From positions 1 to 54,326 of the forward strand of contig CALXLO010000002.1 in NCBI GenBank assembly GCA_944389235.1: 54,326 nt of DNA, read 5' to 3'. Below the pieces are notes generated by a model. It was not told the DNA's origin. It did not search any database and saw nothing but the letters and a program-made list of their open reading frames with translations. Source of the stretch: an uncultured Alphaproteobacteria bacterium. Lineage in GTDB: Bacteria; Pseudomonadota; Alphaproteobacteria; Rs-D84. The position numbers and the translations under genes were made by a program. Below, piece by piece: positions 19,783 through 39,188 of the stretch (the first letter of the stretch is position 1; each line of letters begins with the position of its first letter).

Positions 19783-19809
19783 TAAACAAATTGGGAAAGG
19801 GGTTTGTTT

Positions 19810-22434
19810 ATGAAGCATATTGTTGTGTTGGGTGTGTTATTGGCACTGGTGTCTGTTGATGCGGATGCGGCAACGCGGGGACAGGCTGGGACTGTATCGC
19901 GTGGGGCGGCGGCTACGGCATCTTCTGGGCGCACCAGCAGCGCGGCGGCGCGCAGTGCGACAACCGCCCGCGCAGCAGCACCGGCGGCACCAGCGGTATC
20001 TGCGCGTGCAGCAACAACTGGGCGCACCACGGTCAGTCGCACATCTGCATCAACCACATCAACCCCGACAGTTGCGGCCCGCGCGGCATCAACCCAGAAA
20101 GTTTTGAATATGGGTACATCGGTTGCGGTGGCAAATGAAAATATTGTGGTCAGTGATGAATGCCGCCAGAAATATTACGGGTGCATGGATTCTTTCTGTA
20201 TGTTGGATAATGACAGTGGTGGCCGCTGTATTTGCAGCGACAGAAATGCCGAACTGGACGAAATATTGGATAAAATTCAATTGTTAGACCAGCAAACTTA
20301 TCAAATGGCGACATACGGCGTTGAACGCATAGAAATGGGTGCAGATGCCGATGCGGCAATTGCAAATGCAAATGCTGTTGCGCAATCTATTATGAATTCT
20401 GCGGCACAAAAACAAGAAGAAGAAAAAACATCACAACGGCGCAGTTTGGATTTATCTTTATGGTCATCAACCAGTATTTTTTCTGATTCATCAGATGTGT
20501 TTGGTACAGAGATGGTTGACCCGATTGAGGGTAAAGAAGGTGATGCACTGTACACTGCGTCGCACCAGATTTGTGCGCAATCAATCCCAGAATGCAGTGG
20601 TGAATTAAATATGTTGCAATTAATGTATTCGCAGCAAATTCGTTCTGATTGCAGTGCCTATGAAAATAGTTTGAAACAGCAACAAAACGCCAGTACGCAA
20701 AAATTATATGCGGCGGAACAGGCGTTGCGGGGCGCGGCACTGGAACAGTATCGCAGTGCAAATCGTTATGATTTAGGTCAATGCACGGTTGAATTCAAAA
20801 ATTGTATGATAACAACGGGCGGTTGTGGTGAAGACTTTTCTGGTTGCGCATCAGTTGTGGCATTTGATGCAACAAATACGCGTTCAGACAATAAAAATTT
20901 AGGAAAAACTTATTCAATCAAGGGCGCGGTAACCAGTATCGATATTCAAGAATCAACATACGATATATTGATGTCTAAAAAGCCATTGTGTGAATCTGTT
21001 ACCCGGCAATGTACAAATGTCGCAGACCAAGTGTGGGATACTTTCCTGCGCGAAGTTGCCCCCCAGGTCAAAGCTGCGGAATTAATTGCCGAAGATAATG
21101 CGCGTCAAAATTGCATTGGTAATATATCATCATGTTTCCAACAGGCGTGTCGTGATAGCATGGATGCCAATAATCCAGAAAGTTCATACGATATGTGCCT
21201 GACGCGGCCGGAAACAATGTTGAATGTATGCAGGGTGCCATTGAATGCGTGTGGTATTGATGCCAGCAGCGCAGAAAAAGCAGAAGAGTCTCAGATTTGG
21301 GATTTTGTTATTGCGCGGTTGCAGTCTATGCGGGTAAATTCATGTACGACCCAGGTTCGTAATTGTTTGCAATCCGAAGACAGATGTGGTTCTGATTATA
21401 CCCAGTGTTTAGGATTAGATACAGATACCATTATTCGTATGTGTCCCGAAGACTTGTTAATCGGATGTCAAGGCTATAACGGGGCAGAGGAAGCAGCAGG
21501 TGAAGAAGCGTTCTATGACGCATTGGAACCAATGATTCAGGGTATTATGCTGAATATTGATAATAATATGTTGGCAGAATGTCAAAAGGCGGCGGATACT
21601 GCGATGATAAGTGTGTGTGGTGATTCAGAAAATTGTAATAACTTGGCAGTTGATGAGAATGTCGGAACACATACACTGGAATACAAGCTGTGCAAGACAG
21701 GTACCAGTTCGTGTGTAACAGATGTTGAACAAATTTCAAATGCAGATTTGCTGAATAGTGCAGTAAGTTTCGAAGTTGTAATAGATGGCGAAATTAATTG
21801 GGGCAATATATCATTTGATAATAACGGCACGGTTACTTTGTCGGGCAGTAATAGTGCGGCTGTCAGTTCTGAATTACAGATATTGCAGAACAATATACAA
21901 AATGCAATCAGCACCATAGAAGCAGACCCCCAGGTTCAATTCTGTGTAACGGGTCGTTCTGTCCAGGGTGTCGTTGAACGGGGCAGCGAAGTTTCGCGTT
22001 TTGAAAACCTGACAACACAAATGCGTGAAAAAATTGCAGCCTCGGCAATCAGAAAGGCAATGGATAATTACTATGCAAAGTATGCAGAACTGGAACAACA
22101 GGGGATGAAAGATTATGTAAGAATTGCCGAACGCCGTGCCGAAGCCAAAAAGGAAAATGCACAAGCTGCGCGTTTGGTGGCGGCGCGAACATCGTGTGTC
22201 GGTGGTGGTGATACACCAACAAACACATCTGTTTCGTCAGATGCATTGGCCAGTTCAAATGTGGTCGTAGATGATTGGAATTATCGTGAAACGGTTACAT
22301 CAACATTTTCCGAAGAAACACTGGTTTGCCACAGATGTACACGCACACAAAATTGTTTGGACCCCAAGGGTGGCAGAAAAATGTGTAAAGAATGGGCAGA
22401 GGCAGTTGAAACATGTGTTGATATACAGTTCTAG
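19810..22434 (+). CDS. Large secreted cysteine-rich protein, paralogue A
   Basis: I do not recognise a named family. The 874-residue product starts at ATG 19810 (AAAGGGG 7 nt upstream). A TTG two codons earlier is too close. It has a signal peptide (to about residue 23, ADA-ATRG), then about 75 residues of Ala/Thr/Arg/Ser low complexity. At residue 118 comes the signature CRQKYYGCMDSFC-x8-RCICS. Thereafter 38 cysteines run to the C-terminus in repeated C-x6-C-x6-CGx2[FY]x2C modules (for example CGEDFSGC, CGSDYTQC), with ADQVWDTFLRE near residue 406. The C-terminus is LVCHRC...CVDIQF. Helical, Gln/Glu-rich stretches lie between cysteine pairs. The even cysteine number and export predict a disulfide-bonded envelope or surface protein. 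It is closely related to the next gene, three bases downstream. Confidence 0.88.
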   Translation: MKHIVVLGVLLALVSVDADAATRGQAGTVSRGAAATASSGRTSSAAARSATTARAAAPAAPAVSARAATTGRTTVSRTSASTTSTPTVAARAASTQKVLNMGTSVAVANENIVVSDECRQKYYGCMDSFCMLDNDSGGRCICSDRNAELDEILDKIQLLDQQTYQMATYGVERIEMGADADAAIANANAVAQSIMNSAAQKQEEEKTSQRRSLDLSLWSSTSIFSDSSDVFGTEMVDPIEGKEGDALYTASHQICAQSIPECSGELNMLQLMYSQQIRSDCSAYENSLKQQQNASTQKLYAAEQALRGAALEQYRSANRYDLGQCTVEFKNCMITTGGCGEDFSGCASVVAFDATNTRSDNKNLGKTYSIKGAVTSIDIQESTYDILMSKKPLCESVTRQCTNVADQVWDTFLREVAPQVKAAELIAEDNARQNCIGNISSCFQQACRDSMDANNPESSYDMCLTRPETMLNVCRVPLNACGIDASSAEKAEESQIWDFVIARLQSMRVNSCTTQVRNCLQSEDRCGSDYTQCLGLDTDTIIRMCPEDLLIGCQGYNGAEEAAGEEAFYDALEPMIQGIMLNIDNNMLAECQKAADTAMISVCGDSENCNNLAVDENVGTHTLEYKLCKTGTSSCVTDVEQISNADLLNSAVSFEVVIDGEINWGNISFDNNGTVTLSGSNSAAVSSELQILQNNIQNAISTIEADPQVQFCVTGRSVQGVVERGSEVSRFENLTTQMREKIAASAIRKAMDNYYAKYAELEQQGMKDYVRIAERRAEAKKENAQAARLVAARTSCVGGGDTPTNTSVSSDALASSNVVVDDWNYRETVTSTFSEETLVCHRCTRTQNCLDPKGGRKMCKEWAEAVETCVDIQF
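19993..20143 (+). repeat. Long direct repeat, copy 1 (paralogue A N-terminus)
   Basis: This 151-nt segment coding for the low-complexity N-terminal region and the start of the cysteine domain matches 22621-22771 in the next gene with only scattered differences and no indels by eye. Other nearly identical blocks are about 20560-20690 with 23130-23240, and about 20940-21070 with 23520-23620. Confidence 0.75.
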
Positions 22435-22437
22435 TTT

Positions 22438-25377
22438 ATGAAACGGATTAGTGTTTTATTTGCAGGTTTATTTATGATTGTATCGTTGCCGCCGGTTATG
22501 GCGGCAACGCGCGGACAAAGCGTAAATGTGTCAAGGGGTGGGGCGACTGCGTCCGCGACAACGCGCGCCACCACGGCGCGCAGCGCAACAACAGCCCGCG
22601 CAGCGGCACCGACGGCACCGGCGGTATCTGCGCGTGCAGCAACAACTGGGCGTACAACGGTCAGTCGCACATCTGCATCAACCGCATCAACCCCGACGGT
22701 TGCGGCCCGTGCGGCATCAACCCAGAAAGTTTTGAATACTGGGACATCGGTTGCAGTGGCAAATGAAAATACTGCAGTTGATAATTCTTGTCGTCAGAAA
22801 TATTACGGTTGCATGGATTCGTTTTGTATGTTGGATAACGAAAGTGGCGGTCGTTGTATTTGCAGTGATAAAAACGCAGAATATGATGCTATGCTGGCAG
22901 AAATAGAATTATTGGACCAGCAAAGTTATCAGATGGCAACATTGGGGGTGGAAAGTATTGAATCTGGATTTGATGTTGCGTCCGCAAAAAATTTAACGAC
23001 ATCTGTTGCCAACAGTATATCTGGGGGCGGGGTTGATTTATCAATGTGGAATATGAATCTGGACGATGGTGCAGAATCATCAAACTCACTGGATGGAAAA
23101 ACAGGCGACGCGTTGTTTGCTGCCGCGCACCAGATTTGTGCGCAATCAATTCCAGAATGCAGCGGTGAATTAAATATGTTGCAATTAATGTATTCGCAAC
23201 AAATTCGTTCTGATTGCAGTGCCTATGAAAACAGTTTGACGCAGCAACAAAATGCCAGCCAAGAAAAATTAGCAGCCGCACAAGCAGCCTTGCGTCAAGC
23301 ATCGTATACCCAATTGCGTGATGCAAACAAATATGATTTAGGTCAATGCACAGTTGAATTCAAAAATTGTATGATGACAACGGGTGGTTGCGGCGATGAC
23401 TTTTCCGGTTGTGCATCTGTTGCGGCATTTGATGCGACAAATTCAAATGGACGCGGTATCAGTGCGCGCCCACATTTAATTCATGGCAGTTTAACAGACA
23501 TTGAAATATCAGCATCAACATACGATATATTGATGTCTAAAAAGCCGTTGTGTGAATCTGTTACCCGGCAATGTACAAATGTCGCAGACCAAGTATGGGA
23601 TACTTTCCTGCGTGAAGCTGCACCGCAGATAAAAAATGCGGAATTAATTGCCGAAGATAATGCGCGTCAAAATTGCATTGGTAATATATCGTCCTGTTTT
23701 TTACAGGCATGTCGCGATACAATGGACCCAAATGACCCCGATGGTTCGTACGATATGTGTCTGACGCGTCCGGAAACAATGTTGAATGTATGCAAGGTCC
23801 CATTGAATGCGTGCGGTATTGATGACACAGACCCAGAAAAAGCAACAGGTGCACCGATTTGGGAATTTGTTGTTGCGCGATTGGCATCTATGCGGGTAAA
23901 TTCGTGTACGACACAATTCAAAGAATGCTTACAGGCCGATACATTATGTGGTTCTGATTATACCCAGTGTGTTGGACTGGATACAGATACCATTGTTCGT
24001 ATGTGCCCATACGATTCTTTGCCCGGATGCCAGCAGGTATATGCAGATACAGATATTCGCGGTGATGCAGTATATGATGAATTGTATAATATTGCCCAGG
24101 GTATATTCTTGGGAATTGATAATAATATGCTGGATTATTGTCAAAGTGCGTTAGATGAAGCAATTATTACCGCGTGTGGTTCAACCGAATCGTGTGATAA
24201 GTATTTGTTGGACCAAAATGTTGGTACGCGTTCGCTGAAATATGAACTGTGTGAATATCAAATCATAGATGATGGTGCAAATATCGGTTGGACAAATTGT
24301 CGTACAGATGTTTCGCAAATATCAGATGTTGAACTGGGGCGCGACCCCAATGCAGGTGCTGGAAAATTGGGACCAGTGGTGCCATTGGCGGGCGTGGTGT
24401 CTGGGACAATATATTGGGATGGTGTGGAAATTGATGAAAACGGTAATATCAGCAGTGTGGACGAATATTTCGCAAACATAGATGCCACAAATGCGTCGGA
24501 TATAGAAAAACAAGCCGTATCGGCAGAATTAACCGCACTGCAAAATAATTTGAATACTATATATAGCATAATTGATTCTGACCCGACTGTTCAATTCTGT
24601 ACCACGGGTCGCGAAGTGCAGGGCATAAAACCGTATAACGGTACCACTGTTCCGCGTTTTCCGGGGCTGGCAAAATCAGCCAAGTTGAAAATTGCAACAA
24701 ATGCAGTTAATACCGCGCGTGATAATTATTATAAACGATATGACGAAATAAATGAAAAAATGGCGCAAGACCAAGTTGAAATGTCTGAACGCATGGCAGA
24801 AATTAAGGGCGAAAATGGCAAAGATGCCCGTCGTGAACAGGCGCGCCAGGCGTGTGTTAACCTGGCCGAAGGTACAGCATTACCAAAAGTTGAAACCCCA
24901 AAGTCAATTGCAGGAATTATATTCGCAACAGTTGCGCTGGTTGCTGCCGCAGTTTTGATTACTGTATTTACTGCGGGTGTCGGGGTGGTTGGCGCAGCAG
25001 GCGGAATTGTTGTTGCGGGGTTGAAGGCTGGAACAATGACGGTCGCGACAGCAACTGGATTAATGACGGCAACACCGATTGTAACCAGTCTAAGCGCAGC
25101 CGGTGCCGGTATGGTTATCGGTGCAACCGCTGCTGCGGATTGGCAAGGTGTTCAGTCAAAAGATGCGGCAAATTTAGAACTGTCTGGGCGGTATGAAAAT
25201 GAACAGTGGAATTATCGCGAAACAATAACAACTGATTTTAATATGGATACTTTGGTGTGTCATAAGTGTATTACAACACAACAGTGTGAAGAAATCAGGT
25301 CGCCACTGTTTGGTGCAAAATCATGCAAACAATGGGCAGACGCGTCCCCCGCGCAATGTTCTGATATTCAATTCTGA
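22438..25377 (+). CDS. Large secreted cysteine-rich protein, paralogue B, with hydrophobic segment
   Basis: A tandem paralogue of the preceding gene, starting at ATG 22438 only three bases after its TAG and without a ribosome site of its own, so translation is probably coupled. The 979-residue product has a signal peptide (to about residue 22, VMA-ATRG), the same Ala/Thr/Arg region, the signature CRQKYYGCMDSFC-x8-RCICS at residue 118, and 38 cysteines in the same order as paralogue A. The main difference is an insert of roughly 85 residues near the C-terminus. It is strongly hydrophobic and Gly/Ala-rich (IAGIIFATVALVAAAVLITV, then VGVVGAAGGIVVAGL), just before the shared WNYRET...DIQF end. 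This form may therefore be membrane associated while paralogue A is soluble. Function unknown. Confidence 0.88.
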   Translation: MKRISVLFAGLFMIVSLPPVMAATRGQSVNVSRGGATASATTRATTARSATTARAAAPTAPAVSARAATTGRTTVSRTSASTASTPTVAARAASTQKVLNTGTSVAVANENTAVDNSCRQKYYGCMDSFCMLDNESGGRCICSDKNAEYDAMLAEIELLDQQSYQMATLGVESIESGFDVASAKNLTTSVANSISGGGVDLSMWNMNLDDGAESSNSLDGKTGDALFAAAHQICAQSIPECSGELNMLQLMYSQQIRSDCSAYENSLTQQQNASQEKLAAAQAALRQASYTQLRDANKYDLGQCTVEFKNCMMTTGGCGDDFSGCASVAAFDATNSNGRGISARPHLIHGSLTDIEISASTYDILMSKKPLCESVTRQCTNVADQVWDTFLREAAPQIKNAELIAEDNARQNCIGNISSCFLQACRDTMDPNDPDGSYDMCLTRPETMLNVCKVPLNACGIDDTDPEKATGAPIWEFVVARLASMRVNSCTTQFKECLQADTLCGSDYTQCVGLDTDTIVRMCPYDSLPGCQQVYADTDIRGDAVYDELYNIAQGIFLGIDNNMLDYCQSALDEAIITACGSTESCDKYLLDQNVGTRSLKYELCEYQIIDDGANIGWTNCRTDVSQISDVELGRDPNAGAGKLGPVVPLAGVVSGTIYWDGVEIDENGNISSVDEYFANIDATNASDIEKQAVSAELTALQNNLNTIYSIIDSDPTVQFCTTGREVQGIKPYNGTTVPRFPGLAKSAKLKIATNAVNTARDNYYKRYDEINEKMAQDQVEMSERMAEIKGENGKDARREQARQACVNLAEGTALPKVETPKSIAGIIFATVALVAAAVLITVFTAGVGVVGAAGGIVVAGLKAGTMTVATATGLMTATPIVTSLSAAGAGMVIGATAAADWQGVQSKDAANLELSGRYENEQWNYRETITTDFNMDTLVCHKCITTQQCEEIRSPLFGAKSCKQWADASPAQCSDIQF
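22621..22771 (+). repeat. Long direct repeat, copy 2 (paralogue B N-terminus)
   Basis: This is the partner of 19993-20143, in the same reading frame and at the same residue positions of the second gene. It shows that the pair arose by tandem duplication and may still exchange sequence. Confidence 0.75.
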
Positions 25378-26521: not shown

Positions 26522-28543
26522 ATGCCATATTTTTTGAAACGGTGTGGTGTTTCAGTTGTGTGCTTGGCCGCAGTTATTGGTACGGCGTGTGGCGCAGAAT
26601 CCACAGGGCGCGCATCATATAATGTAATGCAACTAAACAGGGCGGGAACGACAACCGCGCCCCAGGTTCAGCGTATGCCAACTATGCCGACATTGCCGGT
26701 AACGGCGGTGGGAAATCTGTCGCCAACGCTGCCATCGGGTGGTGGCGGAAACGGCGGTGGTGGAACCCCTGTTGACCCAGTTGACCCAACACCAGAACCA
26801 GAATGCCCAGATGGCGGTGTGAAAAATTCTGAATATACGGTCGAAAACTGTATGAACGATATTTTGGCATGTATTAATAATGGTGCGCTGGGTGGCGGTT
26901 TGAATGATTTGTTTAATGAAGACCTGCGGAATGCGATTGTTAATGGAATGGGAATCTGCACTGTCCAGGTTGAACGCTGTGTCAGTGAAGTGCGCCGTGA
27001 TTGTAAAAATATTTATAATTCCGCGTCTGATGTATGGATTGACTTTAATGCGCGCAAGGTTCAACCAGAATATTATAATTTTGTCTTGCGCAAGACAGGG
27101 CTGACACCAAATCAAGCGGAAAATACTTGTATGTTATTGGACAGAAATGTCTATGGTTCGTCGTTCAGTGCGGTTTCTAATGCAGGGGCGGTAACATCTG
27201 AATATAATAATCCTGTGGGTGCATATAACAGTCAAAATGGAAATGTGCTGATTAAAACAACACCCCAAGGGGTCCAGGTTAACAGCAATGATAATGCTGT
27301 TGATGGTCAGCGGGGACATTATGCGCGCTGGGACCCGACAACCGCAGAATGCTGGGTTCGTGTTGCGGCATATAACAAAGATACGCATATTAAAAACAGT
27401 TGGCTGTTTGGTGCCGCCGGTAATGACCAACCGGCCGAAGTATGGCGTTTAGCAGGTGATACTTTTACATGTAATCGCGATTTGTTCGGTTTTTCACTGA
27501 TGAACCAGACTAATACTGCCGCGGTTGTTGGTATTGGTGGGGGAACATTGGTTGGTGCCGGGATTGGTGCGATTGCAGGACATGGCGCGCGCGCGTTTGA
27601 TTGTGATATTAAAAATCACCGCGATATGCTGATGTCTGCGTTGAAAGAAAATAATGCAATCGGTCAACTAAACGGATTTTTAGCAGATAAAAATGTGCAA
27701 TTGTCCAGTACTGATAGTACGATGTCTGAATCACAATGTGCCGCAATCATAGAATTGTATGATAACGCAATCAGCAATTCAATGCTGGTGGACACTGTAT
27801 CTAATAACGAAGTTGAGCTTGGCATAAACTTTGCATGTGATGGTCAAAGTATTGCAGACTGCTTTAATGCAAATGCGCGCGTATGTGCAGAACAAGGCTT
27901 TACCACAATTGCAGAATGTAAAAACTATCTGGAAACCCAGGCATGTGTCAATATGACAACAGCAGATGATTGCATAAATTATTTAATAAATAATTTAGGT
28001 GTATCGGCTGGTGCTATTACAATGGAAACTGTGGCGACATCCAGTACGACAACAGTGGTTTCAACAGATGAAATTCGGGCAATATTTACCAGTGATATTG
28101 TTGACCTGTTGCAAAATGGCGAAGAATCTAATATGGGCAAGGCCATTGGTATTGGTGCCGGTGTTGGTGCTGGGGCCGGCGGGTTGGCAACGGCGATAAC
28201 GGCCTTTGTTGAACGCAGCAATATTAATTGTCGCGTGGGTGATGGATTGGCCCAGGTCGGATATGGCAAATCGTATTCTATCGAATCGTTAAAAGATTTT
28301 TATGTGAAATGGAATTTGCGTTTGCCGGATACGATTTCGCCAACGGCAACGGTTGTTGACTGTGATTCTTGGCGAAACGCATGTGGAACAATAACAGACT
28401 TGAACCAGTGCGCAAATGCCCAGATTAATTACAGACCGGTCGGTGCGTCAACAACAACACTGATACCGGGGGCATGTGTGGCATCGGGCAGTGCGTGTAT
28501 AGAAAACTATCCGGTGGCGAAATCATTTGGTGCATGTAAATAA
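26522..28543 (+). CDS. Secreted Cys-containing protein with two glycine-zipper segments
   Basis: Unrecognised. The 673-residue product follows a strong AAGGGGGG site and begins with a signal peptide (to about residue 24, GTACGAES). If the cysteine in TACGA were a lipobox it would be a poor one, so type I cleavage is more likely. A Pro/Gly-rich linker (PSGGGGNGGGGTPVDPVDPT) leads to a cysteine-bearing region (CMNDILACINN, CTVQVERCVSEVRRDC, ASDVWIDFNAR). Two glycine-rich hydrophobic segments follow, GIGGGTLVGAGIGAIAG (about residue 345) and GIGAGVGAGAGGLATAI (about 545), each followed by a cysteine. C-x6-C spacing recurs, and SASDVWIDF loosely recalls the DQVWD motif of the tandem paralogues. 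I infer an envelope protein with membrane-inserting hairpins. A terminator follows. Confidence 0.82.
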   Translation: MPYFLKRCGVSVVCLAAVIGTACGAESTGRASYNVMQLNRAGTTTAPQVQRMPTMPTLPVTAVGNLSPTLPSGGGGNGGGGTPVDPVDPTPEPECPDGGVKNSEYTVENCMNDILACINNGALGGGLNDLFNEDLRNAIVNGMGICTVQVERCVSEVRRDCKNIYNSASDVWIDFNARKVQPEYYNFVLRKTGLTPNQAENTCMLLDRNVYGSSFSAVSNAGAVTSEYNNPVGAYNSQNGNVLIKTTPQGVQVNSNDNAVDGQRGHYARWDPTTAECWVRVAAYNKDTHIKNSWLFGAAGNDQPAEVWRLAGDTFTCNRDLFGFSLMNQTNTAAVVGIGGGTLVGAGIGAIAGHGARAFDCDIKNHRDMLMSALKENNAIGQLNGFLADKNVQLSSTDSTMSESQCAAIIELYDNAISNSMLVDTVSNNEVELGINFACDGQSIADCFNANARVCAEQGFTTIAECKNYLETQACVNMTTADDCINYLINNLGVSAGAITMETVATSSTTTVVSTDEIRAIFTSDIVDLLQNGEESNMGKAIGIGAGVGAGAGGLATAITAFVERSNINCRVGDGLAQVGYGKSYSIESLKDFYVKWNLRLPDTISPTATVVDCDSWRNACGTITDLNQCANAQINYRPVGASTTTLIPGACVASGSACIENYPVAKSFGACK

Positions 28544-29170: not shown

Positions 29171-29293
29171 TATCTATACAAATGCAAACTGTATTTGTGT
29201 GGTATGATTGCGGATGCAGTTTTACATTTACGGGGAAATATTACCCCGTAATTCAGATAGCCACAACCAATGAAATAAATATTCTGGATTTAA

Positions 29294-31879
29294 TTATATG
29301 CTGCATGCAGTTTCAGAATATTGTATTTCAATCTTGCGACAATTTGGTTGATTGCCGTTTGCGGTGCATTCTTGGTCTGCAACCCCAATGGCGTGTATGT
29401 TTGATGCCGGAACGCCCGATTCTGTTAAAACATTTTTTACCGCATCTGCGCGTTTTTGAGACAAAGGTTGATTTATTTCTTTGGTTCCGGTTTTATCTGT
29501 ATGACCAGTTATTGTTATGCAATAATTTGCATTGCCGGTATTATCGCTTAGCAGTGTTGCGGCAAAATCTGTTATTGTATTTTTTGCGTTTTGGTCCAGT
29601 TCATATTCGTTTAATGCAAACAGTTTGTTGCTGGGGATTTCAATCTTGGACATTTGTTTTTCTTCAACAACAGATTCTGTTGATTGTTTGACACATTGAC
29701 CATTGGCGTTAACGGTGTATCCTTGGTCAGCGGGACATTCACAAGATTCTATGTATTCTGAATCTGTGGCGGAATATTTCGGTTGAAAACCATTTATGCA
29801 ATAACATTCACAAGTGTCTGGATTTGTTGTTATATTTTGCGCAGTTAATTCACATTTATATTGGCATGTTGGTATTAATGGATAGTCCAAAACAGATGCG
29901 TTGTCGTTGTCTGGTTGTTTATCTATGCACTGTGTTTTGTCTTTATTAGGAACCTGGTCTTTGCATTCTATACATTCATTATTATTAGAATCGAATACAG
30001 AATTTTCATCGGTACAAACGCAATTTGGATAATTACCCGCAGACCCATCTGGACATGTTGCGCCGTTATCCAGGTCTGGTAATAGCGCAATTGCATTTTC
30101 CAGTTTTTTTAACGGTTCATATTTTGCCAATATTTCATCAGACCGTTCTTGTGCAGCGTTTTTATTATGATTTATCGCCAGGTTTCCGATAATGCCCGCC
30201 AATGTACCAGCACCCGCAGTTATTAAACCTGTTTTTAGTTGTTGCGATGTTGCGTTTTGTTGTTCTGCCCATGCGGCGGCGGCATCGCTGGTTGGGTCTG
30301 ATAACGCCGCGGCAAGTGATATAAACGCGCCATCTACACGCCCAGATGAAACATTGTCGTACAGACCGCTTGTGGCGCTGTCCAGTATAACTTCTGATTC
30401 AATGCCGGGTGTCATGCCCAACGCGTCTTTGCGAACCTGTAAATCGGCCGCCAATGTTATGTATTCTGTATATAACGGTAATAATTGATTACCGCCCGGC
30501 AACGATATATCGCGTTCGCCACCGTTTATATTACGGCCGGCACCATAATCACAGCGGAATGTTGCCAGATATGCCGTCATATCACGCGTTGCAGCATTCG
30601 CCGCATTTTGTTCCGCCAGTGCGGACGCGGTTTGCATTAATCCGATGCCTGTTGCGCCAATACCAGCCGCCCCCAGCAGTTTGTTTTCTGTTGATTGTTC
30701 TTTTTCGCGCATTGCGTCGGCGTTTGCCCGTAATTCAGCAATTTGTTTTTCAGAATCTTCTTTGGATAAAATTGCCTTGATACAAGATTTTTTATCTGGG
30801 CTGGTGTTGTATCCGTCGGCGCATGAGTCAATGATACAAACCTCTGTATTAGTGGTGGTGTCCCATTCGCGATGTGCGGATGTGGCGTTTTCAGGCATGG
30901 GGTTACAGTCGCCAGAAATTTTTACGCATTTACCATCAACTACATCAAACCCAGGATTACAATCTGTTGCATAACATTGACCCTTTTTTAATTCGCCAGC
31001 GGTCGCATTTTCAATAGCGGCAATTTGTGCATCGGTACAGGGACCGTCGCTTCTTTCGCATGCGGTGTCGTCATTGATTGGCAGATATTTGGCATTACAT
31101 TTTATTTTACAAACTAATTCGCCATTAACCAATTCATATTTGCCAGATTTTGCATTTGCCGGCAGTTGTAAGCACTTATCACCAGCACCTAAACAATCAT
31201 TGTTTGCGGTATCCAGGATATGAGTGTTATCGCATGCGGTTATAAAACAAGATAAACCACCCTTGCTGTTTGTTCTATATTCGCCGGCGGTGGCATGTTC
31301 GTCTATCTTTTTGTAGTCGCATGGGTCGCCTGCACTGACACTGACAAGCGTTTCATCAATTGTCAAGACCTCTGGTGTTAATGTAATGGCACCCATGCTT
31401 TTCGATACCGGCACAGTTTTTGATTCATAGCCCTGGCTTTCGATTAACAAATCGGTTGTTATGTTGGTTATTTCCAGACTGAAATTACCATCGGCATCTG
31501 TTTGTGTATAAATAGTTGGCGTGTCTGGTACCATAACCATTACCCCAGGTATTCCGCCTTGGTCATCAATGATTTGACCAGATACAATCATTGTTGTTGC
31601 AGTTGACGGTGCAGATGCCACAGGTTCACTGGGTTCAGATGCGGTTGGTGTTGTTGGATTGCAATATTCTGTTAAGGCTTCTTTAACCATTGCGTCTGTT
31701 ATGCCGGTTTTATAACCCCCTGTACAATCTATTGTCAGATTTGCGCAAGAAATTTCGCCTTGATTTTGAAATCTGCATAATTTATTAACAATATCAATTG
31801 ATGCGTCTATTGAAAGACTTGCTGCCGTGGCGGGCAGGGTAAATAAAACAGTAAAGATTCCAATTAATAATTTTTTCAT
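29294..31879 (-). CDS. Cys-rich secreted protein with a C-terminal OmpA peptidoglycan-binding domain
   Basis: The 861-residue product has a signal peptide (to about residue 20, ATA-ASLS). A carboxypeptidase-regulatory-like beta-sandwich follows at about 97-160 (VSGQIIDDQGGIPGVMV, TDADGNFSLEI). Then come cysteine-rich repeats resembling EGF or growth-factor-receptor modules (residues 185-370), two Gly/Ala hydrophobic stretches (LLGAAGIGATGIGLM; GLITAGAGTLAGIIGNLAI) and a second cysteine-rich region. The last 110 residues are an OmpA-like domain (ITGHTDKTGTKEINQPLSQKRADAVKNVL is split here as ITGHTDKTGTKEINQ and LSQKRADAVKNVL) ending GVADQECTANG. OmpA domains bind peptidoglycan, so this is probably the cell-wall anchor of the operon. 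It is the third gene of a minus-strand operon, 6 nt after the one before it. No strong ribosome site is seen, so coupling is likely. Confidence 0.87.
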   Translation of the reverse strand: MKKLLIGIFTVLFTLPATAASLSIDASIDIVNKLCRFQNQGEISCANLTIDCTGGYKTGITDAMVKEALTEYCNPTTPTASEPSEPVASAPSTATTMIVSGQIIDDQGGIPGVMVMVPDTPTIYTQTDADGNFSLEITNITTDLLIESQGYESKTVPVSKSMGAITLTPEVLTIDETLVSVSAGDPCDYKKIDEHATAGEYRTNSKGGLSCFITACDNTHILDTANNDCLGAGDKCLQLPANAKSGKYELVNGELVCKIKCNAKYLPINDDTACERSDGPCTDAQIAAIENATAGELKKGQCYATDCNPGFDVVDGKCVKISGDCNPMPENATSAHREWDTTTNTEVCIIDSCADGYNTSPDKKSCIKAILSKEDSEKQIAELRANADAMREKEQSTENKLLGAAGIGATGIGLMQTASALAEQNAANAATRDMTAYLATFRCDYGAGRNINGGERDISLPGGNQLLPLYTEYITLAADLQVRKDALGMTPGIESEVILDSATSGLYDNVSSGRVDGAFISLAAALSDPTSDAAAAWAEQQNATSQQLKTGLITAGAGTLAGIIGNLAINHNKNAAQERSDEILAKYEPLKKLENAIALLPDLDNGATCPDGSAGNYPNCVCTDENSVFDSNNNECIECKDQVPNKDKTQCIDKQPDNDNASVLDYPLIPTCQYKCELTAQNITTNPDTCECYCINGFQPKYSATDSEYIESCECPADQGYTVNANGQCVKQSTESVVEEKQMSKIEIPSNKLFALNEYELDQNAKNTITDFAATLLSDNTGNANYCITITGHTDKTGTKEINQPLSQKRADAVKNVLTESGVPASNIHAIGVADQECTANGNQPNCRKIEIQYSETACSI

Positions 31880-31885
31880 TTTGTT

Positions 31886-33487
31886 TTATCTGGTTGACAC
31901 ATTGCGGCGTTGTATTACCGGTGTCGTGTTTTCAAGTTGATTTTCAACACTATGTATGCCGTTTTCCATTTGGTCTTCTTCCCATATTTTGTCAATGATA
32001 TCAGATGTTGTCTGGGACAGGGTGTCAGAAATTTCTGATTCAATATCTTTAATATCAGATTCCATTGTTGCGTCAACAAGTGCATTGGATTCGGCAAGAT
32101 TTTTAGATATTTCTTCATTCAATTTAGCATTTTCTTTGTTCATTTGATTTGTTGTTTTGGATTTTATATCAATTAATCCATCGCCGTCTTTGTCTTGCGA
32201 TTTTTTTAATGCGTTTGAATCAGAACCAGATACCTGTGTGCCATAGTTTTCTTCGTATTCTTCTTGGGCATTTTTCAGTGCTTTATCTGCCTTGGACCGG
32301 TCAACTGCGCGTTCAATTGCGCCAGATGTTATTGCACCAACACCAACACCCAACCCAGAACCCAATAATGCCGCCGATGCAGATGTTTGTGCACTGGTTA
32401 ACCGATACGCGTTTTCCATAAATGTTGTTATGTCAATGCCGAACCAATCGGGTGTGCAGTCAAATGAACTGCCGGCATAGGATTTCTTGGACGCATACAG
32501 TGTGCCGTCTTCGCCGGCATAAAATTCCACAGTGTATACGCAGTCCATTGTGCGTTCGTCAAACATCGCACCCAGGGTTGCACATGTTTCACGCATTTCG
32601 TCGCGTAATTCATACAGGCGTTGTTCGTCGCGTTGAACCTGAACCTCTGCATCCTGGCGCAAGATAGCAAATACCTGCATTGCGCGACTGGCCAGACCGC
32701 TGTCTTGTTCTAAACAATCGCCGGCGATTGTTTTGCATGCCGCAATTGCAGAATCCCCCGCAGATTTGCCCAGACACTTGCTGAATGTTGTGCCACATTG
32801 CGTAATAATGCAATCGTTATATAAATTTCCACAGTTTATAATTGAATTATATGATGCCAAACGCGCATTCATATCACGGTCAGCCTTGATTTCCGCAGAA
32901 AACAGTCTGTATTCTTCGCCGGTGCATTCAATATTCATGCGGCATAAATCCATTTTATTGCCCCATGCGGTATCAGTGTCGCCGCGACATTGTGAAAAAT
33001 CAGTGCCACATTTTTCCTGCATACATTGGCGCAGACCAATATCACATGCGTTTTGACCACGTGCCAATGCGGTTTGCATAGATTGATTTGCCGTTGATAC
33101 CGCGTCTGCTGCGTCCAGTGCCGCGCGTTGTTGCCGTATCATTTCAGCACGCGCTGCGTCCGATGCGTCGGTTGTTGCGGCGGTGCTGGATGTGCTTAAT
33201 ACCGAATCAAACTGTGATGTTTTGTTTTCTATGACTGGTTCTGGTTCCGCTGGTTCGGAATCTGTATCTTCTGTGGTTGCGGTGGTTGTTGTCGATTGCG
33301 TCGTCGTTGTTGTTGATGTTGATGCGCGCGCAGCAACATTTGTGCGCGATGAAACCGACGGGCGTGCCGCAGTTGTCCGCTGTGCCACCGCAGCATACGA
33401 ATCGCCTGCAAAACATGCCACCGCAAATACCATTACCGTAAATGCGATTTTTTTGTTATGGCAAAGATTTTCAAACAACTTGTTCAT
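31886..33487 (-). CDS. Secreted Cys-rich protein with glycine zipper and coiled coil
   Basis: I start it at ATG 33487 (MNKLFENLCHNKKIAFTV). Upstream in-frame codons overlap the preceding gene. The 533 residues give a signal peptide with a long n-region (to about 34, SYA-AVAQ), then a Thr/Ser/Arg low-complexity stretch rich in TTTT runs. Cysteine modules follow: CDIGLRQCMQEKCGTDFSQC and CGNLYNDCIITQCGTTFSKC, both C-x6-C-x4-CGTxFSxC. Later come a glycine-zipper segment (GSGLGVGVGAITSGAIE) and a charged helical tail likely to form a coiled coil (residues 430-520). A DKDGDGLID stretch resembles a calcium-binding loop. It is the middle gene of the minus-strand operon and shares the module with the tandem paralogues at 19810-25377. 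Confidence 0.85.
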   Translation of the reverse strand: MNKLFENLCHNKKIAFTVMVFAVACFAGDSYAAVAQRTTAARPSVSSRTNVAARASTSTTTTTQSTTTTATTEDTDSEPAEPEPVIENKTSQFDSVLSTSSTAATTDASDAARAEMIRQQRAALDAADAVSTANQSMQTALARGQNACDIGLRQCMQEKCGTDFSQCRGDTDTAWGNKMDLCRMNIECTGEEYRLFSAEIKADRDMNARLASYNSIINCGNLYNDCIITQCGTTFSKCLGKSAGDSAIAACKTIAGDCLEQDSGLASRAMQVFAILRQDAEVQVQRDEQRLYELRDEMRETCATLGAMFDERTMDCVYTVEFYAGEDGTLYASKKSYAGSSFDCTPDWFGIDITTFMENAYRLTSAQTSASAALLGSGLGVGVGAITSGAIERAVDRSKADKALKNAQEEYEENYGTQVSGSDSNALKKSQDKDGDGLIDIKSKTTNQMNKENAKLNEEISKNLAESNALVDATMESDIKDIESEISDTLSQTTSDIIDKIWEEDQMENGIHSVENQLENTTPVIQRRNVSTR

Positions 33488-33504
33488 ATATTTCTGTTTT
33501 GCCT

Positions 33505-34374
33505 TTAATTTAATGTGTCGCATGCAACACGATAAAACTGACATAACTGATTCGCCGCAGTGCGTTCTGAATCAAAGCCATCGCCGCATTTGTTCGGCAT
33601 GTTGCGTGCACATACCGTTTCAACACATTCATTATATGATGCGTTATTGTCGCACCCAGATTGCGCGGTTATTAACATTTGTTCGCGTGCGTTCTGATAC
33701 GACGCAACGATGTTTGCCAATAATGTATCTGCGTTTTTAATGGCATTGTCGCGGTCAGATGTTAATGTTGTGCGAATGTCCGCCAAGTATTCGTCGCACC
33801 CAGTGGCAGAAATACTGCATTCAGAAAAATATCTGTTAAAATTGTCGTCGGTTTCACATGCACGCCAATCTGGTCCGCAGCGCGCGGCATCAACAATACA
33901 TGCACGAATATCTGTCTGGCATGATGTCGCACTGGCTGTTTTTGTATTAGACGCTAATGATGCAGCGTATTGGGCGCTGACCCCGGCCGCACGGCATGAT
34001 TGTTCAATTAAACTGTCGTATGTGTCTGATACATCATCTGCGGTGCAACCGTCAACCTTGGCAATACATTGTTCAGTTGCCCATACATAGCGTTGACCTG
34101 GGTCGGTTGGCGCATCTTCCAGTTCGTCTTCGGTAAGTGTATATCGTGCCGATTGACCCAACGATAAACTGCGCATGCCGGTTTGTCCGGTTGGTGGTGT
34201 CCCAGCACTGGATGTGCCGCAATATTGACAACGCGCCGCCGGATTTGACGATACATTAATTGCGCACACAGAATCTAAACACCGGGTCAAATTCATCTGG
34301 GAACATGTCGCAGCCAATGTAATTGACGGCAACATAAAAACACTGCACGCAAAAAATATCGTGATTGGTTTCAT
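33505..34374 (-). CDS. Small secreted Cys-rich protein, first gene of the OmpA-linked operon
   Basis: The 289-residue product has a signal peptide (to about residue 21, TLA-ATCS). A short version of the family signature follows directly (CSQMNLTRCLDSVC, then RCQYC), then CQTDIRACIVDAARCGPDWRAC, the C-x6-C-x6-CGx2Wx2C module. More cysteines follow towards the C-terminus (CDNNASYNECVETVC, NKCGDG, LCQFYRVACDTLN). It lacks the long low-complexity region and membrane segments of its relatives. AAAGAGAGAA abuts the ATG. It is followed by the 31886-33487 gene after 17 nt. Probable role: a small partner or subunit of the same envelope assembly. Confidence 0.83.
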   Translation of the reverse strand: MKPITIFFACSVFMLPSITLAATCSQMNLTRCLDSVCAINVSSNPAARCQYCGTSSAGTPPTGQTGMRSLSLGQSARYTLTEDELEDAPTDPGQRYVWATEQCIAKVDGCTADDVSDTYDSLIEQSCRAAGVSAQYAASLASNTKTASATSCQTDIRACIVDAARCGPDWRACETDDNFNRYFSECSISATGCDEYLADIRTTLTSDRDNAIKNADTLLANIVASYQNAREQMLITAQSGCDNNASYNECVETVCARNMPNKCGDGFDSERTAANQLCQFYRVACDTLN

Positions 34375-34392
34375 TTCTCTCTTTATAAAAAG

Positions 34393-34420
34393 AGTATATC
34401 AAAAAACATGATGTCTTGAA
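34393..34420 (-). promoter_or_regulatory. Candidate promoter of the minus-strand operon
   Basis: On the - strand, TTCAAG (34420-34415) and TATACT (34398-34393) are spaced by 16, just before the first gene. The -10 is good and the -35 weak. It is divergent from the promoter at 34470-34498. Confidence 0.4.
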
Positions 34421-34469
34421 AGTAAAAAAGCGGTACAAAATGTATAAAAATATTTTTTGATAATCTGTC

Positions 34470-34498
34470 TTGACAAAATGTATATTTTTGTCTATGTT
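34470..34498 (+). promoter_or_regulatory. Sigma70-type promoter
   Basis: TTGACA (34470-34475) and TATGTT (34493-34498) are separated by 17. The gene at 34528 starts 29 nt downstream behind AAAAGGGGA. Confidence 0.7.
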
Positions 34499-34527
34499 GT
34501 GTATGTAATAACCAAAAGGGGATTAAA

Positions 34528-35271
34528 ATGGCAACTACAACGGGTGCAAAAACACCACGCAAGTTTAAGTTTGACAAGAAAATTTTGGCGCATACATCTG
34601 CGGCGATTGTTGGTGCGGCGTTGATTATATTCGGTATTAATCAGTGCAGCAATAAACGCGACGAACGCGCATTAAAAGAAGCGGCACAACGCAACTTGAC
34701 CGAAAAACAAGAACAGTATATCAGTGCGGCTGAAATAATAAAAAAAGCAGCTGTCGCAATTGATAGTTTATCGGGTGATAATCAAATCAAGGCTGATTCA
34801 ATTATCGTTCTGAATGATTCTATCAAAGTATTGAACGATTCGTTAGATTTGACTCAACGCCAATTGACAGATTGCAGAAAATCTAAAAAACGCCCGGCGC
34901 GTCCGTCTGTACCGGCAGAAAAACCACAACAGGCAAAACCACGCGTGATTGATGCGGTTGCAGCCGCGCCAGTTAATAATGAAACAATTATTAAACTGCA
35001 AGACAGTGTTAAGAATACTGGTGATGTTATTGTCGCAAATGGTGATGTGCGCGGAAATAACAAAACAGAAATTACACTGGGCAAAGGCGCAGAAAACAGC
35101 GGCACAATTGTTGTGAATAACGGCGGTAATGTAACAGTATATGGCAACAGTGCAGATTCTGTGAAAAATGATACTGCTGCTGATAAAGCACAACCGCAAA
35201 AGCAAGTTGATACACTGCGTGCAAAAGTTATCTGTGTTTGGACAGAAAAAACACGGACTTGGGTTCGCTAA
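34528..35271 (+). CDS. Membrane-anchored protein with coiled coil and Asn/Gly repeats
   Basis: Unrecognised. The 247 residues begin with a basic cytoplasmic stretch, then one membrane helix (AHTSAAIVGAALIIFGINQC, about residues 21-40), giving a single-pass anchor. A helical, probably coiled-coil region follows (about 45-120), containing repeated DSI/LND units (ADSIIVLNDSIKVLNDSLDL), then a basic Pro/Lys linker. The next part (about 150-215) is rich in Asn, Gly, Val and Thr (GDVIVANGDVRGNNKTEITL, GTIVVNNGGNVTVYGNS), compatible with a short beta-solenoid. The C-terminus is WTEKTRTWVR. It has its own promoter and terminator. Confidence 0.78.
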   Translation: MATTTGAKTPRKFKFDKKILAHTSAAIVGAALIIFGINQCSNKRDERALKEAAQRNLTEKQEQYISAAEIIKKAAVAIDSLSGDNQIKADSIIVLNDSIKVLNDSLDLTQRQLTDCRKSKKRPARPSVPAEKPQQAKPRVIDAVAAAPVNNETIIKLQDSVKNTGDVIVANGDVRGNNKTEITLGKGAENSGTIVVNNGGNVTVYGNSADSVKNDTAADKAQPQKQVDTLRAKVICVWTEKTRTWVR

Positions 35272-35302
35272 AAGTTCAGCGTATTGGTTGCTGAAATATA
35301 AA

Positions 35303-35337
35303 ATCAGGCACCGGCAATTTGGTGCCTGATTGTTTTT
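35303..35337 (+). terminator. Intrinsic terminator
   Basis: ATCAGGCACC and GGTGCCTGAT form a perfect 10-bp stem around an 8-nt loop, followed by TGTTTTT. The core is the same as in the terminator after rplQ. Confidence 0.88.
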
Positions 35338-35426
35338 ATATATTTATATGCAATAGTGGATTAAATTTTTCTAGACATATATTTCATAAGTGTGTTAAGA
35401 TATTTTTTGTACAGAGAGAATATTTA

Positions 35427-38400
35427 ATGAAATACATCAGAATTTTTCTGTTTGCACTGTTTTTTGCACCGGTTGCGGCATTTGCGGCAACACCCAGCAA
35501 TGAATTTATGATTGCGGCCCAGTTGTTATCTGCGGCAAAAAATGCCGATATTCAACAGGTTCAGCTGCTGATTAATAATGGCGCAGATGTTAATTATGTG
35601 GACAGCACAGGGTTATCACTGGTGTGTACTGCGTTGATGAATAATGATATTCGCGCGGCACAAATATTGCAAATGTATGGCGCAGATGCGTCAAAGTGCG
35701 ACCGACAAATAAAACAATACGAATCGCGAAATACCCCTGAAAGCAGCGGGGGGCTGTTCAGCGGACTATCTTCCGCCCAGAGTATATCATTAGCGGCGGC
35801 GGGGGCCGCCGTTGTCGTAGGTGGGTTGTTTTTATTGACTGACTGGCTGGACCCGGGGAATGAAAATAATAATGGTGGAACCGGCACCGGTGGCAATCGA
35901 CCAGGCCAGGGTGAAAATACAGGTGGTAATTCTGGCAGTGGTACCGAGGCTTTTATTACTGGTGTTGGACCGGCGTATGTCGCATCAGATAATACTGTGT
36001 CTTATAGCAAACAAAAATATCAAGAAAACTTAAAATTGTGGAACCCCAGTACCGGCGGTACAAATGAACTGGACTTTAATTATTTCAGACCAACTGTACA
36101 AACAACTAATAATTATTTATTAGATGGTTTGCCAGCTGGGATGCAGAATTATCTGTTGATTATGCACGGTTATTCGGCGTTTGCAAATGGATATATGGGG
36201 CAAACAACATTTCGTAATACGGATTCTTCACATTCACCGGTATACTTGAATAATGATACTGGTGGTGGTAAACCGATACTGACATCTGTAATAACAACAA
36301 ATGGTATTAATCCGGCGGGTTCGGCTTCGCGCGGGGATGGTATTTTGTATGCTGCCGGTGCTGGTGTTGGTGCAGCAACAACCAGGGTGGATAAATATGC
36401 AAATTATTTGTCGGCATGTACCAGTGATGGATGTGGCGCAGAAGTGGAAAAAGGTTTTGATTTATCAGGCAGTGGAACGGCAATGAACCCGTTTGCCAGT
36501 GCAACAGACAGTGCGCCCGCCAAGATAATTGGGGGATGGGCGGCTGGTGAACGCGCATACGGTGATTTATTCGGGTTTGTTCCAAATGGTCAATTGGCGA
36601 TATACAGAACCGGTGGTGGCTATGAATGGGTTGATGTAAAAAATCCAACCAGTGGCGCGTCTGTGGGAACAGTTAGCAAGGCTGGTACTGGTGATTCTGG
36701 TAATAATGTAATTGCCGTTGGCGATACAATAACCTTGGGTGGAAAAACTTATACTATTTCGTTGGCAAATTCGGGGGGAACAAATCCGACAATTACAGTT
36801 AATGGCACAGTGTACAAGGTTGGTGATAATTCAACTTTATTAAAAGGTGTTTGTACCAGCAGTACCCCCGCGGACTGCGAAGGTGTGTCTGATATTGCAA
36901 TTTATCAGGGAACAGACGGTTTCTATTATGTGAATACAACCGGAAAAAATACTTTTGATGCTGTATATGTTGTTGATAACAATAATATTTATACCCAAAA
37001 AACCCAGCAAGAAACAGATATCAAAACTTTTGAAGCAATATTTAATGCGCGTACAAATGGTGCAACTGTTGTTGCAAATGCAACATTGAATCCGGAATCA
37101 CGCAGTGCATCGTATGCTAAAATGAATGATTTGCCGTCTTTGTTCGCAACTGCGGGCAGTGCAGATAAAAAAATAGTATTTGCTGAACTGATTGATAAAT
37201 ATTATGAAAAAGACAGCAGTGGTTCAACCACCCAGGGTGGATTTGCAAATCGTATGTTTAATGGATACAGCAGTGGTCAGCCAATAATTGTTATGCCGGC
37301 TGGTGAATTTGAATTTGGTTTGGGTGATGGTAAATCAGTCGAAGTGTTAGATGCAACATTTGAAAATTATGCACCGGCATTATATGACCAAAATCTGGAA
37401 CGGATGTTTATGACAGTTGTTGCTGTTCAAAACGCAACAGGTACTGCCGCAGCAGATTCAATTGAAGGATACGGTAATGGTACCGGGTCTGCGTATGGAC
37501 CGTTGTATTTATCAGCATGGGTTGATAATAACGGTACAACAGATACCACAGATGATGACAAGACATATATGTCGCGTAAATGTGGTATTGCAGGATTGGG
37601 ATTAAATGGCATTGACCCGTGGTGTTTTTCGGCGGCGGGTCCGACTGCTGAAATGGCGACCGCATCTGCGGCGGGGGCGGTTGCGGCGATAAAAGGGGCA
37701 TTTAGTTATTTATCTAACCCAAAAATATTTGTGTTGTTGGCGTTAACAGCAGACGGTCCATATTTGGCAACAAATCCAAGTTCTGAAAATGGTACTGCAT
37801 GGACAAGCGTTAATGAATTAGTTGCTTATTTGCAAAAAATGTATTCTTTGCCGCCAGAATATGCACAGTTAAATTTAACAGGTCAAGAATATTTGGACAA
37901 ATTTGCCGAAGTTTATGGTTATGGCATGATTAATCTGGAACGGGCAACAACCCCAGGCAAAAGGGTTTATTTCTATGATGGAAATAATATTGTGTCTGAC
38001 AGTGGCAATGCGTATTGGCGTGCGGCGCAAAATACAACTTTTCGTGCATCGTCAGTATTTAGTTTGGCAAACGAAACAATCAGTGCACCGTTCTTTGATG
38101 TGCTGGAAAGTTTTGATGGGTCAATGACTTTGCCACGCGTGTGGAAAAATGAATTTGCGCTGGGGACAACATCAAAACGCGGATTGTATATGGGTGATGT
38201 TTTGGGCGAATTTAGAACGCGCACAGCACAGTCTAATCGTATACAATTTGGTAATTTTGGTTTTTCAATGTCTATGTCTGAAAAGCCGTATGCAGATAAT
38301 ATGAATGGTTTGGATGATATGCGGTTGGATTATACATCGGGTAATTGGAATTTTGCCGCCGGTTATCAACGGCATTTTACAGATGGTAATTCGCGCTTTG

Positions 38401-39188
38401 ATGGGATGTCTAATCCAATATTGGCGATGACATCGAATGCTGTTTTGTCGGATGTTGAATATCGGGCAGGGCGTTGGTCTTTTGGTGCGCGCGCGTTTTC
38501 TGGTAATATCACAGATGAAACAACATTAGACAATGACCCAACTATTTCATCGCAATATATGCCGGCGCGTCTGGGGTTAATGCAGGGCGCACAGTCTAAT
38601 GTTGCATGGAATGGGGAACAGTTCGGATTTTCTGCGTCGTTTGGTGCCGCACATGAAACAAATACTTTACTGGGGGCGGTGTCTGGCGGACTGTTGAATA
38701 TGGGTAATGGTGATACTGTATACGCGGATACAGAAATGTATTGGTCGCCAATGGAAAATATGCGCTTTACGGTGCGTTCAACTTTTGCGCGAACAAACAC
38801 AAATGCGACCGGTGATTTTGTTTTGGGCATGTCTGATATCGATTCGCGCGCATTTGCGTTTGGTATGGATATTGGCGGGTTTAGTTTCAGTGTCGCGCAG
38901 CCATTAACTATCAGTCGTGGCAGTTTGTTATATCCGTATGCTGAATATGAAATCGTTAATGTTGGCGATAATAAATATGATATAACAATTCAAAATGCAC
39001 ACATAGAAAGTTTGGATTTAAGCCCGACACAACGCGAAGTTCGGTTTACTGGTGCATATCGTCATAATTTGGGTGAATTTACAGATGGCGCAATTGGGTT
39101 TATATATCGTGTTAATCCAAATAATACATCTGAATTTGGAAATGAATCTATATTCATGATGAAGCTAACACATCGTTTGGGAATATAA
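35427..39188 (+). CDS. Ankyrin / subtilisin-like autotransporter, probably catalytically dead
   Basis: I start it at ATG 35427 (MKYIRIFLFALFFAPVAAFA), which gives a signal peptide and has AGAGAGAA upstream. The longer open frame begins in the terminator. The 1253-residue product has ankyrin-like repeats (about 25-95, with QVQLLINNGADVNYVDSTG), a hydrophobic helix (SISLAAAGAAVVVGGLFLL, about 119-137) and a Gly/Asn linker. A large passenger follows, then a C-terminal beta-barrel (about 970-1253). Parts of the passenger recall S8 subtilisin autotransporters (SRKCGIAGLGLNGIDPWCFS, later YGYGMINLERATTPG). The segment that should be GTSMATPHVAG reads PTAEMATASAAG, so Glu742 replaces the catalytic serine. 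The last residue is Ile rather than the usual Phe. An ankyrin domain at the N-terminus of an autotransporter is unusual. Confidence 0.75.
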   Translation: MKYIRIFLFALFFAPVAAFAATPSNEFMIAAQLLSAAKNADIQQVQLLINNGADVNYVDSTGLSLVCTALMNNDIRAAQILQMYGADASKCDRQIKQYESRNTPESSGGLFSGLSSAQSISLAAAGAAVVVGGLFLLTDWLDPGNENNNGGTGTGGNRPGQGENTGGNSGSGTEAFITGVGPAYVASDNTVSYSKQKYQENLKLWNPSTGGTNELDFNYFRPTVQTTNNYLLDGLPAGMQNYLLIMHGYSAFANGYMGQTTFRNTDSSHSPVYLNNDTGGGKPILTSVITTNGINPAGSASRGDGILYAAGAGVGAATTRVDKYANYLSACTSDGCGAEVEKGFDLSGSGTAMNPFASATDSAPAKIIGGWAAGERAYGDLFGFVPNGQLAIYRTGGGYEWVDVKNPTSGASVGTVSKAGTGDSGNNVIAVGDTITLGGKTYTISLANSGGTNPTITVNGTVYKVGDNSTLLKGVCTSSTPADCEGVSDIAIYQGTDGFYYVNTTGKNTFDAVYVVDNNNIYTQKTQQETDIKTFEAIFNARTNGATVVANATLNPESRSASYAKMNDLPSLFATAGSADKKIVFAELIDKYYEKDSSGSTTQGGFANRMFNGYSSGQPIIVMPAGEFEFGLGDGKSVEVLDATFENYAPALYDQNLERMFMTVVAVQNATGTAAADSIEGYGNGTGSAYGPLYLSAWVDNNGTTDTTDDDKTYMSRKCGIAGLGLNGIDPWCFSAAGPTAEMATASAAGAVAAIKGAFSYLSNPKIFVLLALTADGPYLATNPSSENGTAWTSVNELVAYLQKMYSLPPEYAQLNLTGQEYLDKFAEVYGYGMINLERATTPGKRVYFYDGNNIVSDSGNAYWRAAQNTTFRASSVFSLANETISAPFFDVLESFDGSMTLPRVWKNEFALGTTSKRGLYMGDVLGEFRTRTAQSNRIQFGNFGFSMSMSEKPYADNMNGLDDMRLDYTSGNWNFAAGYQRHFTDGNSRFDGMSNPILAMTSNAVLSDVEYRAGRWSFGARAFSGNITDETTLDNDPTISSQYMPARLGLMQGAQSNVAWNGEQFGFSASFGAAHETNTLLGAVSGGLLNMGNGDTVYADTEMYWSPMENMRFTVRSTFARTNTNATGDFVLGMSDIDSRAFAFGMDIGGFSFSVAQPLTISRGSLLYPYAEYEIVNVGDNKYDITIQNAHIESLDLSPTQREVRFTGAYRHNLGEFTDGAIGFIYRVNPNNTSEFGNESIFMMKLTHRLGI

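Follow-up and report, generated by a model that had tools for sequence, protein, structure and literature searches.

A putative envelope operon of reduced-genome gut Alphaproteobacteria carries a recurrent internal domain that evolves in concert

Introduction

What kind of system is encoded by three tightly spaced genes, the first two for cysteine-rich proteins and the third for a large protein with a C-terminal OmpA domain? The genes lie in the stretch of DNA analysed here as a whole, which we call the window (positions 1-54,326 of contig C2 of genome G000, 54,326 nucleotides; the source genome comprises 823 kb in 22 contigs and is 97.9% complete). The initial annotation proposed a wall-anchored envelope complex. 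The order Rs-D84, in which Enterousia is placed, consists of gut Alphaproteobacteria with reduced genomes, and the make-up of their envelope matters because these bacteria have none of the usual transporters of sugars, amino acids or peptides and are presumed to depend on partner cells (PMC12306168). Nearly all of the sequences that we compared are metagenome-assembled. Searches with PHROGs and Rfam gave nothing useful except OmpA and one tRNA. Elsewhere in the window, 43879-44985 on the minus strand encodes a choloylglycine hydrolase family protein (a bile-salt or acyl-amide hydrolase), which fits a gut habitat.

A conserved operon for three exported proteins

The open reading frames bore out the three-gene run on the minus strand: gene 1 (33505-34374), gene 2 (31886-33487) and gene 3 (29294-31879), in that order of reading, with spacers of 17 and 6 nt. 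All three products begin with signal-peptide-like N-termini, hydrophobic in the case of gene 1. Gene 1 encodes a 289-residue Cys-ladder protein, predicted to be exported, and 20 of its 21 cysteines are invariant in an alignment with 14 relatives. The gene 2 product, 533 residues when read from MNKLF, is likewise predicted from alignments and hydropathy to be exported. It has the parts that had been described for it: a Cys-ladder core, one Gly-zipper stretch (ALLGSGLGVGVGAITSGAI) and a variable coiled part at the C-terminus. Gene 3 encodes an 861-residue mosaic protein, also predicted to be exported. The large Cys proteins, gene 1 and gene 2 have a Cys-ladder motif in common, though the likeness is weak (hhalign probabilities of 50 and 64), and a low-confidence AF2 model of the gene 2 core (pLDDT 68.6) had no fold relative in the PDB.

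Using a gene 1 profile, we fetched 80 operon loci. Gene 2 lies right behind gene 1 in every one, with a gap of at most 27 nt in 79. Ten of these contigs end at or within gene 2, leaving 70 loci at which gene 3 could be checked: it is the next same-strand gene in 63, and in the other 7 it is missing behind gene 2 or lies out of place. The gap between genes 2 and 3 is at most 54 nt in 49 of the 63 loci, and in the other 14 there is another ORF or a gap between them. Of 201 genomes of the order, 173 have gene 2, all in one family (f1) save for one weak match; the gene is found in 0 of 286 other genomes of the class and is single-copy in nearly all family f1 genomes. Each family f1 genome searched also has the large Cys proteins, so the suggested co-occurrence holds. 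Given the conserved adjacency and the family-wide distribution, the operon is not a chance arrangement, and it is restricted to a single family of gut Alphaproteobacteria with reduced genomes, the one containing Candidatus Enterousia. A promoter scan of the operon did no better than shuffled sequence, so the case for co-transcription rests on spacing and conservation.

Two neighbours of the operon deserve mention. On the plus strand, 26522-28543 encodes a 673-residue Cys protein that has in common with gene 2 a Cys/WFG-type segment followed by a Gly-zipper (hhalign probability only 20). Also on the plus strand, and divergent from the operon in most relatives, 35319-39188 encodes a 1289-residue protein with ankyrin repeats, a TM stretch, a long passenger and a beta-rich C-terminus; its GPTAEMATASAAGA stretch recalls the subtilase serine motif.

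Gene 3 is a mosaic with an OmpA-type tail

The carboxypeptidase-regulatory-like fold that had been assigned to gene 3 is supported by a match to CarbopepD_reg_2 (PF13715) at residues 99-177 (31349-31585, minus strand, like all the segments below), which scores 38.1 bits over a cut-off of 32.2. The cysteine repeats that follow (residues 187-366; 30782-31321) were called EGF-like; the region is indeed Cys-rich, with 20 cysteines in residues 1-370, but its match to CPL1-like (PF21671) reaches 18.4 bits, under the cut-off of 27.4. A second Cys-rich region, recognised by its cysteine positions, spans residues 609-729 (29693-30055).

The C-terminal OmpA domain (residues 753-846; 29342-29623) is unambiguous: it matches PF00691 with 67.6 bits over a cut-off of 27.2 and also has matches in the PDB. 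Its D795 and R810 are unchanged in 39 of 39 aligned tails, and we take these to be the residues with which OmpA-type domains bind the peptidoglycan peptide, as known from OmpA/Pal structures. The domain thus carries the wall-binding signature, and peptidoglycan binding is predicted. The tail is conserved where present but not universal, which the initial annotation had overlooked: 40 of 51 gene 3 proteins have an OmpA match and 11 have no such tail. With CarbopepD_reg_2 matched in 38 of the 51 (E<=0.01), a carboxypeptidase-regulatory-like domain plus OmpA is the usual layout in family f1.

A recurrent hub domain in the middle of gene 3

Between the two Cys-rich regions lies what we refer to as the hub domain (residues ~371-596; 30092-30769), a discrete segment of about 210-226 residues delimited by its recurrence and by alignments. 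It has two Gly-zipper helical stretches and a single cysteine, C443, which is invariant. Conservation in gene 3 peaks in the hub, where all 18 columns that are invariant among the 51 proteins fall. The glycine-rich hydrophobic stretches had been noticed before, but not that they belong to a discrete, recurrent and gene-converted domain; this central domain is what the wall-anchored envelope proposal missed, while its export signals, conserved operon, co-occurring Cys proteins and invariant Asp/Arg pair all hold up. The hub appears not to have been named previously. Pfam families matched at most 5 of 52 members each, with a best E of 0.0011, a PDB sequence search found no relative below E 0.3, and the AF2 model, which is poor (pLDDT 61), had no fold relative in the PDB. 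Kinship of the hub to gene 2 or to the 673-residue Cys protein was considered and is unsupported by profile comparison.

The hub domain is found in 172 of the 201 genomes of the order, at 1-6 copies each and in family f1 only, and it is absent from the 286 other genomes of the class. Its carriers are unlinked exported proteins whose heads and tails are otherwise unrelated, and those that we inspected have hydrophobic, signal-like N-termini. They include trypsin-like, apparently secreted proteins with the hub at the C-terminus (L196 in G043, L045 in G016), proteins with a second OmpA-type tail, OmpA-2 (L198, L202, L205 and L055), a protein with a CarboxypepD_reg/EGF head and no OmpA tail (L200, in which the CPL1-like match is over the cut-off at 39.6 bits), Cys-rich proteins of 1300-2400 residues, and near-bare hub domains of ~245 residues. 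In the source genome itself we found the operon copy, another on contig C4 that is frameshifted, and an apparent single OmpA-2 carrier in parts, divided between contigs C17 and C7.

The hub domain evolves in concert

Hub copies in different loci of one genome can be nearly identical. Copies on one contig of G173 are 100% identical over 738 nt; those of G141 are 99.8% identical over 656 nt, sharing up to 623 identical nucleotides, those of G145 98.4% over 613 nt (up to 431) and those of G043 95% over 503 nt (up to 306). In the last case the chromosome is a single 1.0-Mb contig and the copies lie ~114 kb apart. The 150-nt flanks of same-genome copies are unrelated or nearly so (22-53% alike), and across genomes the median identity of hub copies is 67% (alignments of at least 300 nt).

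A further comparison is that between G157 and G173, whose hub domains are 85% and 100% alike inside each genome, while orthologues between the two are 72-73% alike. Both the operon gene and a second carrier have flanks that are orthologous between these species and unrelated within each genome, so both loci predate the species split. Near-identity within genomes, set against ~73% between orthologues, shows concerted evolution of the hub domain through gene conversion. Fresh insertion of the hub was considered as an alternative to conversion and is ruled out, as orthologous carriers have the domain at the same place. For 41 of 68 hub copies the closest other copy is one from the same genome, compared with a mean of 1.3 and a maximum of 7 in shuffles; because sampling leaned towards genomes that have several strong copies, this count is no population estimate. 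A protein tree of the hub mixes operon and other copies, requiring 14 changes for 15 operon rows. In the source genome, homogenisation is weak and older: its hub copies are 77% alike over 237 nt, compared with 74% to the nearest orthologue, and of the other copies available for this comparison one has a frameshift and the others are truncated where their contigs stop. Of the 80 operon contigs, 21 break off at gene 2 or gene 3 or within one of them, which is what repeats would probably cause in short-read assemblies.

The ends of gene 3 behave differently from the hub and have been swapped between close species. In G168 and G170 the domain is 97-99% alike and most of the N-terminal 750 nt 43-52%. 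The tail is 55-64% alike in G126 and G171, where gene 1 is 98% alike; in G043 and G145 the tail is 95-99% alike and gene 1 78%, and this excess of tail over gene 1 shows a recent transfer of the tail between species. G142 and G166 have hub domains 93% alike and tails that align over 138 nt only. Finally, carriers in G128 and G143 are 97-98% alike up to the hub domain, after which one has OmpA-2 and the other OmpA-1. In the operon loci of these same two genomes (L106 and L100, respectively), gene 3 is missing behind gene 2, the 673-residue gene and its neighbour are inverted, and the contig has a hub carrier at a separate site; this arrangement hints at inversion via hub copies.

The large Cys genes also show signs of rearrangement. 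A tandem pair of paralogues (19804-22434 and 22438-25377) has successive stretches of 93 to 41% DNA identity, which suggests that gene conversion occurs there too. Just beyond the end of the window (L237:3094-6391; C2:55093-58390), another large Cys-ladder gene has an alternative 3′ end behind it, in inverted orientation. The gene and the inverted copy have a common 373-nt arm (99%), then differing tails, and both end in a FNRDTRxCHxCT...CEDIVM motif, so that inversion would switch the C-terminus. This inverted cassette was not found in 20 relatives and could be an assembly effect.

Interpretation

An envelope location for the operon products is well supported by their predicted export signals and the wall-binding signature of gene 3. 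Beyond that, we think it moderately probable that they belong to a family-specific, wall-anchored, disulfide-rich envelope assembly with the hub as interface, OmpA domains as anchors and the products of genes 1 and 2 as partners. Gene 3 is one of several exported multidomain proteins built around a common helical Gly-zipper hub, with variable heads (CarboxypepD_reg/EGF, trypsin-like and others) and variable tails (OmpA type 1, OmpA type 2, long Cys-rich, or none). The hub may serve for membrane insertion, for mutual assembly of its carriers, or for both, and we infer that its copies are kept matched because the carriers meet in one assembly, which the OmpA-tailed members would fix to peptidoglycan. 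Genes 1 and 2 would supply dedicated disulfide-bonded partners, and the lone invariant cysteine of the otherwise Cys-free hub could form an inter-chain disulfide or face the cytoplasm. The contig that bears the Cys cluster also encodes a DsbA-like protein (C2:63903-64733, L237); no match to DsbB or VKOR turned up in the source genome. It is speculative to assign the system a part in partner-cell contact or the capture of nutrients.

A fuller picture, which we offer tentatively, is a modular envelope display: interchangeable heads (beta-sandwich, EGF-like or trypsin-like) and tails on a conversion-matched hub for membrane insertion or oligomerisation, with the large Cys proteins joining the products of genes 1 and 2 in a peptidoglycan-anchored scaffold. 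If it is true, identical hub copies would let all carriers co-assemble on that disulfide-rich scaffold. Nearly every member of the family has the operon and its partners, we found no matching described system, and concerted evolution of one internal domain offers a testable handle on which proteins act together.

It is also possible, if doubtful, that the hub is mainly a recombination handle in a diversity-generating system (antigenic variation or phage escape), in which homologous recombination at the shared hub exchanges heads and tails between loci and between species and gene 3 is a variable surface protein. The replaced heads or tails in the close species pairs examined, the change of tail type right after the hub in G128 and G143, and the inverted 3′ end beside a large Cys gene of the source genome are all in keeping with this. 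The breakpoints, however, are not confined to the hub (G168 and G170 break upstream of it), most of the other copies are long genes, each with an N-terminus of its own, and not silent cassettes, surface exposure is presumed, and the inverted cassette is peculiar to the source genome in our comparison. Surface-head variation and assembly through the hub may coexist.

We regard as improbable that this is an ordinary lineage-specific periplasmic structural operon, with RecA-dependent recombination between any long paralogous stretches homogenising the hub copies as a neutral side effect. RecA is encoded, and the tandem large Cys paralogues (19804 and 22438) are likewise patchy, at 41-93% identity; yet the hub is the part of gene 3 that is conserved most strongly, and proteins with otherwise unrelated heads and tails keep it. 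Least credible by far is a selfish in-frame repeat residing in unrelated genes in the manner of Rickettsia palindromic elements, which the alphaproteobacterial host and the recurrence of one sequence, with its frame kept, in unrelated contexts might suggest: those elements are short palindromic inserts, whereas the hub spans ~226 codons, there is no inverted repeat of at least 60 nt in 29200-35300, orthologous carriers hold the hub at the same place across species, its residues are strongly conserved, and the characterised carriers look exported.

Comparison with known systems

At its C-terminus gene 3 resembles YiaD (NF053611), an exported protein with a Gly-zipper stretch and a C-terminal OmpA domain. 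YiaD is its top NCBIfam match, at 76.6 bits (below the cut-off of 175) and over the OmpA part only, and gene 3 is far larger, with CarboxypepD_reg, EGF-like and hub domains. At the other end, gene 3 and other carriers have, over cut-off, the PF13715 domain found at the N-terminus of SusC-type proteins; unlike these, gene 3 is without a TonB-dependent barrel, its PF13715 domain being fused to EGF-like, hub and OmpA domains.

For the mode of evolution, one parallel is Msp2 of Anaplasma, also a reduced-genome alphaproteobacterium in which envelope protein genes are altered by gene conversion (PMC2789410). There, functional pseudogene cassettes provide the variation (PMC2789410), whereas here long carriers with unrelated flanks homogenise one domain; an expression site with silent donors is not the layout seen, since the other hub copies are mostly long intact ORFs with their own N-termini. 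Another parallel is provided by prokaryotic paralogues that evolve in concert, in which paralogues within a species are likewise closer than orthologues between species (PMC6053082). That work concerns genes, whereas here the unit that is kept matched is an internal domain of ~600 nt, set in genes whose heads and tails are unrelated.
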